Notes under the pieces: model-generated
Seen by the model: only the letters and a program-made list of their open reading frames with translations
The model's database searches: none
Told to the model about the DNA's origin: nothing
Assembly: GCA_028716145.1 (NCBI GenBank)
Contig: JAQUQL010000004.1
Coordinates: forward strand, 1 to 39,726
From: Dehalococcoidales bacterium
GTDB taxonomy: Bacteria > Chloroflexota > Dehalococcoidia > Dehalococcoidales > CSSed11-197
Direction of reading: 5' to 3'
DNA length: 39,726 nucleotides
Translations under genes and position numbers: made by a program
Shown: piece after piece, positions 37,543-39,524 of the stretch
Position numbering within the stretch: the stretch's first letter is position 1
Layout: each line of letters starts with the position of its first letter

Positions 37543-37968
37543 CTATGCTGCCTTCTTCGGTCGTTTGGCGCCGTATTTGCTGCGTCCTTGCTTTCGGTTA
37601 TTTACGCCACTGGCATCCAGGGCACCACGCACTATATGGTAGCGCACACCGGGAAGATCCGGAACGCGACCACCCCTGATAAGCACAACCGAGTGCTCCT
37701 GCAAGTTGTGGCCTTCCCCTGGTATATAGGCGGTTACCTCGATCCCATTGGTTAGCCTTACCCTGGCAATTTTACGCAGTGCAGAATTAGGTTTTTTGGG
37801 TGTCGTAGTCTTTACCTGCACGCATACACCACGCTTCTGGGGCGAACCCTTGCGACCTTTATTGGTCCGGTTTTTCAAGGCATTAAAAGTAAACCGGAGA
37901 GCTGGCGTGTTGGTCTTCGCGCTGATCTTTTCACGCCCTTTTCTTACTAATTGATTTACCGTGGGCAA
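37543..37968 (-). CDS. rpsL: 30S ribosomal protein S12 (TTG start proposed, shorter than the ORF-track start)
   Basis: [114 protein letters not shown] 37968-37966 is preceded by AAGGGGGGAAA. Confidence 0.96.
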
Positions 37969-38004
37969 ATTTCCCCCCTTATTTACAAGGCATTCTGAAA
38001 ATTT

Positions 38005-38061
38005 CAAAGGATGAGTCACGCCCATCCTTTGCACTATAAAGGACTAACTCACCGTTAGCCC
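38005..38061 (-). promoter_or_regulatory. structured 5' leader of the str operon (two hairpins)
   Basis: Minus strand: CAAAGGATG-GGCGTGACT-CATCCTTTG (38031-38005), and GGGCTAAC-GGTGA-GTTAGTCC (38061-38041, one mismatch). Confidence 0.5.
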
Positions 38062-38099
38062 TTTGTTCGATCCGCCTTAGTGATAAGCAACAGCCTATA

Positions 38100-38129
38100 A
38101 GAGTAGCATAGTCGTTTTATCACTGTCAA
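38100..38129 (-). promoter_or_regulatory. candidate str operon promoter (proximal)
   Basis: Minus strand: TTGACA (38129-38124), 18-nt spacer, TACTCT (38105-38100), with an extended -10 TGC upstream. Confidence 0.5.
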
Positions 38130-38168
38130 GCTTGAAGAGCTTTGAAAAGCCCCGTTAAAAACCGTGAA

Positions 38169-38198
38169 ATCATAACACAACCAGCATTGTATTGACAA
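38169..38198 (-). promoter_or_regulatory. candidate str operon promoter (distal)
   Basis: Minus strand: TTGTCA (38198-38193), 18-nt spacer, TATGAT (38174-38169). Confidence 0.5.
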
Positions 38199-38220
38199 GG
38201 CTGATAGCCGGTGTTAAAAT
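38192..38220 (+). promoter_or_regulatory. sigma70-type promoter for the DAHP synthase/aroB operon
   Basis: TTGACA (38192-38197), 17-nt spacer, TAAAAT (38215-38220). Confidence 0.8.
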
Positions 38221-38260
38221 GCTTCAGCGTTAGGCAAAGGCCTGTTTAAAATTAAGTCAT

Positions 38261-38338
38261 ATGCACACAGACATTATAAACAAATCATTTTGGGGTTATT
38301 TTTATTACATCCTGTCCTTGGAGAGGGCTGGCTTGTAG
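38261..38338 (+). CDS. candidate aromatic-rich attenuation leader peptide
   Basis: ATG CAC ACA GAC ATT ATA AAC AAA TCA TTT TGG GGT TAT TTT TAT TAC ATC CTG TCC TTG GAG AGG GCT GGC TTG TAG = MHTDIINKSFWGYFYYILSLERAGL. It lies between a strong promoter and a terminator, upstream of DAHP synthase. The Shine-Dalgarno is weak. Confidence 0.75.
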   Translation: MHTDIINKSFWGYFYYILSLERAGL

Positions 38339-38381
38339 GATCTGGTACCCATTGTTACTGAAACAGCTTAACCCTCCCAAG
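38317..38381 (+). promoter_or_regulatory. candidate antiterminator pairing
   Basis: CTTGG(A)GAGGG (38317-38327) pairs with CCCTCCCAAG (38372-38381): 10 bp with one bulged A, mutually exclusive with the terminator stem. Confidence 0.7.
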
Positions 38382-38400
38382 TGGAGGGTTTTTTATTTTT
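38370..38400 (+). terminator. intrinsic terminator in the DAHP synthase leader (attenuator)
   Basis: AACCCTCC-caagt-GGAGGGTT followed by TTTTATTTTT, ending about 40 nt before the structural gene start. Confidence 0.88.
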
Positions 38401-38438
38401 ATTCGTCTTTAATTGGTTAGTTGTTAGGAGGTTGCATT

Positions 38439-39524
38439 GTGATAATAATGAAAAAGGGAGCCACTGCTGAAGAAATCGCCAGTGTGGTGCACGACCTTAA
38501 AAGCCACGGACTGGAAGCTGATGTATCAACTGGAGAGATCCGAACAGTAATAGGGATTATAGGTGATGAAAGCCGCATTTCGGCAACTCATCTCGAGACT
38601 CTACCGGGAGTAAAAGAAGTTCGGCTTATAGAAACACCTTACAAGCTTATAAACCGGGAGTATTCCGCCCTGTTTGACGGTAAAACCGAAAGCCGGGTGG
38701 TTAAAGTTGGTAAAGTTAACATTGGCAATTGTGAACCGGTTTTTATGGCTGGGCCATGTGCGATTGAGGGTAAAGACCAGCTTATGCGGATTGCTGAAGA
38801 TGTAAAAGCAGCTGGAGCAGATATCCTGCGGGGAGGAGTTTTTAAACCACGAACTTCAGTACACTCCTTCCAGGGGCTGGGTTCCAGCAAAGAAGGGGCA
38901 GAACGGGCTTTGAGTTGGCTCCGCGAAGCGGGGGATAAATACGATATGCCGGTTATAACTGAAGTGAGGGGCGAGTCTCATGTGGACCTGGTGGCCAGAT
39001 ATGCCGATATATTACAAATTGGCTCTCGCAACATGTACAACCAGGATTTGCTAATAAAGGTAGCGGCAGCTGGAAAGCCGGTTTTGTTCAAGCGTCATTT
39101 CGGAGCAAGTATCGAGGAATTTCTTTCTTTTTCAGAATACATAGCTGCATCTGGCAACAAGGATATTATCCTGTGTGAGCGCGGAATCGTGCCGGTAGGA
39201 CGAGGCAAGAACTACACGCGTTACGTTCTTGACCTACAGGCAGTACCGGTTATTCAAAGGGAAACATACCTGCCTGTCGTTGTTGATCCTTCTCACGCTG
39301 CTGGCAGAAGAGATCTGATCGCAACCATGAGTCTATCTGCCATTGCGGCTGGCGCTTCAGGGCTGGAAATTGAAGTTCACCACAACGCCAAGGAAGCCCG
39401 CTGCGACGGTCAACAAATGATTACAGCCAGCGAGCTTGGAGCCCTTATCGAATCCTGCCGGAGGGTCAACCGCGCCATCAGAGATTCCGGGGGAGATTAT
39501 ACTGGGTACAAATGCAAGAATTAA
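38439..39524 (+). CDS. aroF: 3-deoxy-7-phosphoheptulonate (DAHP) synthase, type I-beta with N-terminal ferredoxin-like regulatory domain
   Basis: IIMKKGATAEEIASVVHDLKSHG N-terminal domain. EPVFMAGPCAIEGKDQL, GGVFKPRTSVHSFQGLG, ILQIGSRNMYNQDLL, PVLFKRHFGASIEEFL, DPSHAAGRRDLI, LEIEVHHNAKEARCDGQQ. GTG start with AGGAGG. Confidence 0.95.
   Translation: MIIMKKGATAEEIASVVHDLKSHGLEADVSTGEIRTVIGIIGDESRISATHLETLPGVKEVRLIETPYKLINREYSALFDGKTESRVVKVGKVNIGNCEPVFMAGPCAIEGKDQLMRIAEDVKAAGADILRGGVFKPRTSVHSFQGLGSSKEGAERALSWLREAGDKYDMPVITEVRGESHVDLVARYADILQIGSRNMYNQDLLIKVAAAGKPVLFKRHFGASIEEFLSFSEYIAASGNKDIILCERGIVPVGRGKNYTRYVLDLQAVPVIQRETYLPVVVDPSHAAGRRDLIATMSLSAIAAGASGLEIEVHHNAKEARCDGQQMITASELGALIESCRRVNRAIRDSGGDYTGYKCKN

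Follow-up and report, generated by a model that had tools for sequence, protein, structure and literature searches.

The closest described counterparts of the element reported here are leaders of aroF, the gene for DAHP synthase (DAHPS), and attenuators of aromatic amino acid operons. In C. glutamicum, aroF is preceded by the aroR leader, whose Phe-Tyr-Phe run mediates a response to Phe limitation, whilst Tyr availability is without effect (PMC4046766; PMC11802643, citing Neshat et al. 2014). The uORFC-13-1 motif, with 24 representatives that derive only from Acholeplasma and unassigned environmental sequences, lies exclusively upstream of aroF (PMC8632094); according to its published description, it consists of a predicted upstream ORF with a ribosome binding site and 'at least one' Phe codon, adjoining a terminator. 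In E. coli, pheL (RF01859) and trpL gate the single-branch operons pheA and trpEDCBA, respectively, by means of an aromatic run, alternative 1:2, 2:3 and 3:4 stems, a terminator and a stop codon that lets the ribosome mask segment 2. A different solution is provided by T-boxes (RF00230), which bind tRNA directly without a leader peptide and which have been reported in Dehalococcoides, at trpE and at trpB-like genes (PMC2494555). Attenuation across bacteria is treated by Lopatovskaya et al. 2010, as cited in PMC4833913.

The leader described here precedes aroF in the Dehalococcoidales. In common with C. glutamicum aroR, it places an aromatic-codon leader peptide and an attenuator before a DAHP synthase gene, although it belongs to another phylum and typically has five to eight aromatic codons, often including Trp, instead of three. 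With uORFC-13-1 it shares the position upstream of aroF and a predicted ORF with Phe codons next to a terminator, but mostly not the ribosome binding site. With pheL and trpL it shares the aromatic run, the 2:3 and 3:4 stems, the terminator and the placing of the stop codon, and it has a candidate 1:2 stem; unlike these, it is found at aroF and mostly lacks a Shine-Dalgarno sequence. Like the T-boxes of the same genomes, it would sense tRNA charging at genes of aromatic amino acid metabolism, whereas the T-boxes sit at trpE, TrpB-like and TrpX genes and not at aroF. The mechanism is a known one, with two aroF precedents, and what is new is the lineage, the absence from Rfam and the unusually rich, mixed aromatic runs. 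An earlier note, made from the letters of this locus, knew of no such element in the lineage; this agrees with the open-licence literature, in which no description of a leader-peptide attenuator at aroF in Chloroflexota was found. On the comparative evidence set out below, it is very probable that the aroF operon is under the control of a trpL/pheL-type ribosome-mediated transcription attenuator throughout the order.

The aroF leader and its locus

The window, that is, the whole stretch of 39,726 nucleotides that was analysed, is one entire contig (G000:C4) of a draft genome of 1.33 Mb (93% complete), whose closest named relatives are Dehalococcoidales MAGs. Its aroF gene is the sole DAHP synthase match of the PRK08673 type in the genome. 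The promoter, the leader ORF with its aromatic codons, the terminator and the AGGAGG/GTG start of aroF are all present where the earlier note had placed them (Table 1), and the predicted 5' UTR of the leader is ~34 nt long. The terminator hairpin (38370-38390) has 8 bp followed by a U-run and a folding energy of -12.1 kcal/mol. Segments 2 and 3 pair over 10 bp with one bulged A (38317-38327 with 38372-38381). This pairing, which had been proposed to use up the 5' arm of the terminator, is real and is worth -17.0 kcal/mol (CCUUGGAGAGGGC & ACCCUCCCAAGU).

Table 1. Coordinates of the aroF leader and adjoining genes in the window
Feature	Position	Strand	Remarks
Promoter of leader transcript	38192..38220	+	TTGACA 38192-38197, N17, TAAAAT 38215-38220; consensus match 11/12
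Predicted transcription start	near 38227	+	From promoter; prediction only
Leader peptide ORF, 25 codons, MHTDIINKSFWGYFYYILSLERAGL	38261..38338	+	Stop TAG at 38336; without Shine-Dalgarno
Regulatory codons Phe-Trp-Gly-Tyr-Phe-Tyr-Tyr, proposed stall site	38288..38308	+	TTT TGG GGT TAT TTT TAT TAC; aromatic 6/7
1:2 hairpin	38305..38338	+	38305-38319 with 38323-38338; MFE structure of whole leader
Segment 2, antiterminator strand CTTGGAGAGGG	38317..38327	+	Pairing and comparative evidence
Segment 3, terminator 5' arm and target of segment 2	38370..38381	+	
Segment 4 and U-run, 3' arm of intrinsic terminator	38383..38400	+	
aroF, DAHP synthase, NCBIfam PRK08673 subfamily, full length	38439..39524	+	GTG start behind AGGAGG
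aroB (3-dehydroquinate synthase), truncated by contig end	39512..39726	+	TIGR01357 on ortholog in L144

By itself, the window sequence makes a moderate case. An ORF with at least six aromatic residues in seven codons arose in 23 of 5000 dinucleotide-preserving shuffles of 38221-38438 (p ~0.005), the antiterminator energy is modest (p 0.04), and folding of the whole leader against shuffles revealed no unusual stability (z -0.15). The decisive evidence is conservation.

In Rfam searches, no family reached its gathering score for the window leader or for any of 12 related loci, save an unrelated pan motif on one of these loci (L021). The Phe_leader model (RF01859) aligned over its full length, at 23.3 bits (E 0.11) against a cut-off of 55 bits. 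The T-box model (RF00230) gave no match at 38100-38500 even at E<=5, the three T-boxes of this genome being on other contigs.

At 38192-38198, the -35 box of the leader promoter (TTGACA, forward strand) overlaps that of a promoter-like site of the divergent rpsL (str) operon (TTGTCA, reverse strand). The 5' region of the str operon (37965-38170, - strand) contains three stable hairpins (z -3.72, 0/200 shuffles) and is 79-91% identical in 5/5 congeners, with no Rfam match; it is a candidate structured leader RNA of the genus.

Conservation of the leader across the order

The comparison drew on aroF orthologs and the DNA preceding them, taken from 61 genomes of the order together with named GTDB records. 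Removal of duplicates gave 100 distinct upstream regions, and setting aside a leftover duplicate (L033) and ten records that were distant DAHPS paralogs or came from other organisms left 89. An aromatic leader ORF is present in 88 of these 89 Dehalococcoidales regions, together with a G-rich strand just 3' of the aromatic run and an intrinsic terminator. Automatic detection flagged 85 regions, one of them wrongly (L094), and four more were recognised by eye (L018, L030, L064, L079). The sole exception, L094, is the additional aroF copy of genome G039, and the leader is present at the other copy. The terminator was found by strict scan in 80/85 leaders and was seen by eye in three of the other five (L015, L074, L119). 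Upstream of DAHPS paralogs of ~46% identity (L127-L130) no aromatic leader was found. Separately, three Dehalococcoidales-like DAHP synthases (L095, L099, L100; 58-61% identity) occur without an aromatic leader on contigs labelled archaeal or Bathyarchaeota, and these would reflect gene transfer or binning error.

The leader peptides are 18-35 codons long and variable outside the aromatic run, examples of which are FWAYYY, YFWGYFYFY, YYYYYFAFW, FNAYYYFYYFFW and YFYAYYYF. Within the runs, Tyr, Phe and Trp exchange for one another: the 585 aromatic codons of 85 runs comprise 332 for Tyr, 190 for Phe and 63 for Trp, and all three amino acids occur together in 56 of the runs. Both synonymous codons are in use for Tyr (TAT 194, TAC 138) and for Phe (TTT 150, TTC 40). 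Across 82 leaders, aromatic codons make up 70% in frame versus 9.5% and 16% in the two alternative frames and 27% predicted by composition alone, a contrast that is somewhat inflated because the frame was chosen as the aromatic-rich one. The pattern is one of selection on the in-frame codons.

Pairing and covariation of the antiterminator

In the 80 leaders with a strictly detected terminator, the G-rich strand 3' of the run pairs with the terminator 5' arm at a median of -21 kcal/mol (median z -3.8 against shuffles), and the pairing reaches p<=0.05 in 95% of them. Moreover, each segment 2 prefers the arm of its own species, with a mean 2:3 energy of -19.9 kcal/mol compared with -16.1 kcal/mol for permuted arms (z -12, 0/2000 permutations).

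For the scoring of covariation, 71 leaders were aligned with plain MAFFT; the antiterminator helix comprises 11 pairs in this alignment. The terminator helix was kept outside this scoring because MAFFT shifts its register; each terminator folds singly. Standard pairs account for 85.9% of helix 2:3 compared with 79.2% after shuffling and 43-62% in slid versions of the helix, and cells with changes on both sides number 73 as against 27.9 +/- 4.0. As related sequences can inflate such cell counts, the pairs were also placed on an aroF protein tree (63 taxa), where 19 independent two-sided compensatory changes were reconstructed versus 0-5 in slid controls. The 1:2 hairpin of the GGCGC..GCGC type covaries as well (24 two-sided cells versus 11.8 +/- 2.8) and is paired in 70.7% of cells; in the genus of the window it takes another form.

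The earlier note had proposed trpL/pheL-type attenuation and an alignment of orthologs as a check on it. In that alignment the aromatic run and the geometry are conserved and the alternative stem has undergone compensatory change, so that the proposal is supported by the 88/89 conservation, the own-arm preference and the compensatory substitutions.

Ribosome geometry and proposed mechanism

The elements, their conservation, the covariation of the antiterminator and its geometry are read from sequence and comparison. For the geometry, the ribosome was assumed to cover 18 nt on the 5' side and 12 nt on the 3' side, counted from the first base of the A-site codon. With this footprint, segment 2 has a median of 100% free at the last aromatic codon and a median of 80% covered at the stop codon (79 leaders). 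In 52/79 leaders, segment 2 is both free when the ribosome occupies the last aromatic codon and covered over half its length or more once the stop is reached; the remaining 27 depart from this strict arrangement mostly because their stop codon lies further 3'. The stall and stop positions postulated for the window agree with the model, in which segment 2 would be 82-100% free with the ribosome in the run and 91% masked at the stop; a ribosome anywhere from TTT 38288 through TAT 38303 leaves 38317-38327 fully free. Before segment 4 emerges, the antiterminator fold has a calculated energy of -21.0 kcal/mol, and once the ribosome is placed at TAG 38336, the terminator (-12.1 kcal/mol) is the only one of the two structures to form. 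Once finished, the terminator can win thermodynamically even when the stall is in the later aromatic codons, so that the mechanism depends on kinetics, like that of the classic attenuators.

From these features we infer translation of the leader, ribosome stalling and a response to starvation, in the following sequence. RNA polymerase would start near 38227 and a ribosome would translate the 25-codon leader. When charged aromatic tRNA is short, the ribosome would stall at 38288-38308 with its leading edge short of segment 2, which would then be free to pair with 38372-38381. Formation of this antiterminator would allow transcription into aroF-aroB and, as in relatives, on through aroD-aroE/K-aroA-aroC-pheA-tyrA. 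When the aromatic tRNAs are charged, the ribosome would proceed to the stop codon at 38336 and cover 38317-38327, leaving the terminator (38370-38390) to form. If the leader were not translated at all, the 1:2 hairpin would hold segment 2 and the outcome would again be termination.

Promoter and translation start

A TTGACA box and a TANNNT -10 element lie directly upstream of the leader in nearly all of the 81 leaders tested, and a promoter score of at least 10 was obtained for 66/81 leaders compared with 2/81 shuffled regions. The predicted 5' UTR has a median length of 20 nt and is ~5 nt or less in about a third of leaders, which are possibly leaderless mRNAs. A Shine-Dalgarno-like motif is present in 15/81 leaders and is lacking in that of the window. 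For this reason, translation of the window's leader ORF is only assumed, yet most of the relatives that keep the aromatic run are also without such a motif.

Operon content and the amino acids putatively sensed

In congener G003 and in the complete genome G049, the operon reads aroF-aroB-aroD-aroE-aroK-aroA-aroC-pheA-tyrA, with aroE and aroK fused in G003 and with the G049 operon assigned from gene order and protein starts only. The window's genome has a chorismate synthase-like ORF and pheA on another contig. With this content, the leader would gate the common pathway together with the Phe and Tyr branches, which fits the regulatory codons. No trp genes were found in the operon of G003 or G049. 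T-boxes lie upstream of trpE in many relatives, and the window's genome has three (G000:C33, C2 and C68; L141-L143), two of them at TrpB-like genes and one at a TrpX-type transporter; in one relative (L146), a second DAHPS is located within a T-box-led trp operon. No trpE match was obtained in the window's genome (93% complete) or in two congeners, which makes the window's organism a probable Trp auxotroph, living on salvaged Trp or indole.

These data bear on a narrower reading of the attenuator, in which it senses one or two amino acids only (Phe and/or Tyr) and the Trp codon is incidental or structural; this could equally well be true or false. Trp provides just 63 of the 585 aromatic codons, many leaders have a TGG that shares bases with the GGCGC arm of hairpin 1:2, the operons of G003 and G049 include pheA and tyrA but no trp genes, and T-boxes attend to trpE in relatives and to the TrpB-like and TrpX genes here. 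There is also the precedent of C. glutamicum AroR (FYF), which responds to Phe and not to Tyr (PMC11802643). Against this, all three amino acids are represented in 56/85 runs, and in the genus of the window the Trp codon, which comes early in the run and belongs to no conserved stem, is kept in 6/6 genomes, three of them without a trpE match. Across the order, Trp codons have no tie to trpE presence, being kept in the trpE-less G000, G001, G003 and G059, and for this reason the comparison with trpE says little about Trp sensing. The sensor appears to respond mainly to Tyr and Phe, with an uncertain share of Trp. Pooled sensing of Phe, Tyr and Trp together is plausible, and true pooled sensing that includes Trp stands at about even odds.

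It is highly improbable that the ORF encodes a non-regulatory small protein, or arose by chance, before an ordinary terminator. The variability of the peptides outside the run and the p value of ~0.005 from one sequence would be compatible with such an ORF, but its recurrence in 88/89 regions at 18-35 codons, co-located with promoter and terminator, and the compensatory evolution of the antiterminator are not expected of it. Barely credible is the binding of an aromatic metabolite or a tRNA by a riboswitch or T-box, with the ORF a mere coincidence: T-boxes do occur in the same genomes, at Trp-related genes (PMC2494555), but the window leader scores above gathering with no Rfam family, the spacer between segments 2 and 3 (~30-60 nt) is poorly conserved and without an aptamer-like core, and selection acts on codons in frame.

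Distribution and similar leaders at other genes

Returning to the attenuator, a covariance model of the leader matches 45/295 genomes of the class, including 18 that lie beyond the order; these counts are lower bounds, as the filters lose weak matches and known cases were missed. In some genomes of the class (L212, L214, L215), an aromatic leader precedes a different, short DAHPS. Unexpectedly, the same genomes yielded further matches away from aroF. In the window's genome, a leader of similar design, MSNKNIKQVERNFAFTGRTRCAGGISFMQVL (G000:C7:26137-26248, - strand; L153, L173), precedes an operon for an AMP-binding acyl-CoA ligase, LivH/LivM-like and LivF transporter parts, a binding protein and a PaaK-like ligase. 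Upstream of orthologs of this acyl-CoA ligase across the order (L179-L205), an F-x-F-T-x-R leader end, a GGCGC hairpin and a CCTCCC terminator recur, with a fuller aromatic run in G013 and G049. This leader is possibly a Phe-sensing switch on the uptake and activation of aromatic acids.

Two further loci are found in genome G036. At G036:C9:54596-54712 (L155), a leader in which eight Tyr codons follow one another without a break (AHYYYYYYYYAFTGR) precedes, together with a terminator, a HisC-like aminotransferase that may act on Tyr. At G036:C21:36298-36419 (- strand; L156, L175), a leader (..GFTSFVFTGRTRCAWGAA) precedes a CoA-transferase/2-hydroxyacyl-CoA dehydratase operon with two family III CoA-transferases, two HGD-D subunits, an activase and a GlcD-like protein, which in gene content resembles an aryl-lactyl-CoA dehydratase operon. 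In G040, where no aroF match was found, a Tyr-rich leader (..YRYTTGYIYYYPGD; G040:C41:7823-7941; L160, L176) lies before a DctP-type solute-binding protein and may mark an aromatic amino acid transporter.

Matches outside the class (G340, G482, G663; L208-L211) were rejected as aromatic leaders, having no aromatic runs. Their leaders are rich in other residues, such as ..MPIPPMPIAPIPGLKARSGG before a threonine synthase-like gene and the branched-chain-like MSQPAGVVVLSLISSLIIKGLLPFG, and similar GGGAGG/CCTCCC attenuators may serve other amino acids in other Chloroflexota. Since non-aromatic leaders were matched, the RNA design is probably common and the covariance model partly detects this design and not common descent. 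Tentatively, and at somewhat less than an even chance, the Dehalococcoidia may have an aromatic regulon of similar attenuators, leaderless or without Shine-Dalgarno sequences. In such a regulon, the aroF leader would pool Phe, Tyr and Trp charging at pathway entry, others with the same hairpin, GGGAGG and CCTCCC elements, in which the number of aromatic codons ranges from few to many, would gate the uptake and CoA-activation of acids (probably aromatic ones), an aminotransferase and a transporter, and the Trp genes would be left to T-boxes.

Significance

Leader ORFs of this kind would tend to be missed by gene finders, as they are short and mostly without a ribosome binding site. With the attenuator described here, attenuation by leader peptides would reach into a large lineage that is mostly uncultured and in which little is known of amino acid regulation. 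It would place control at the first committed step of the shikimate pathway and not at one terminal branch, in cells whose Trp genes have T-boxes. The mixed Phe/Tyr/Trp runs offer a direct test of whether a single stall site adds up the scarcity of three amino acids, and the genes of the uptake and CoA-ligase operons may become easier to assign to functions from the similar leaders in front of them.
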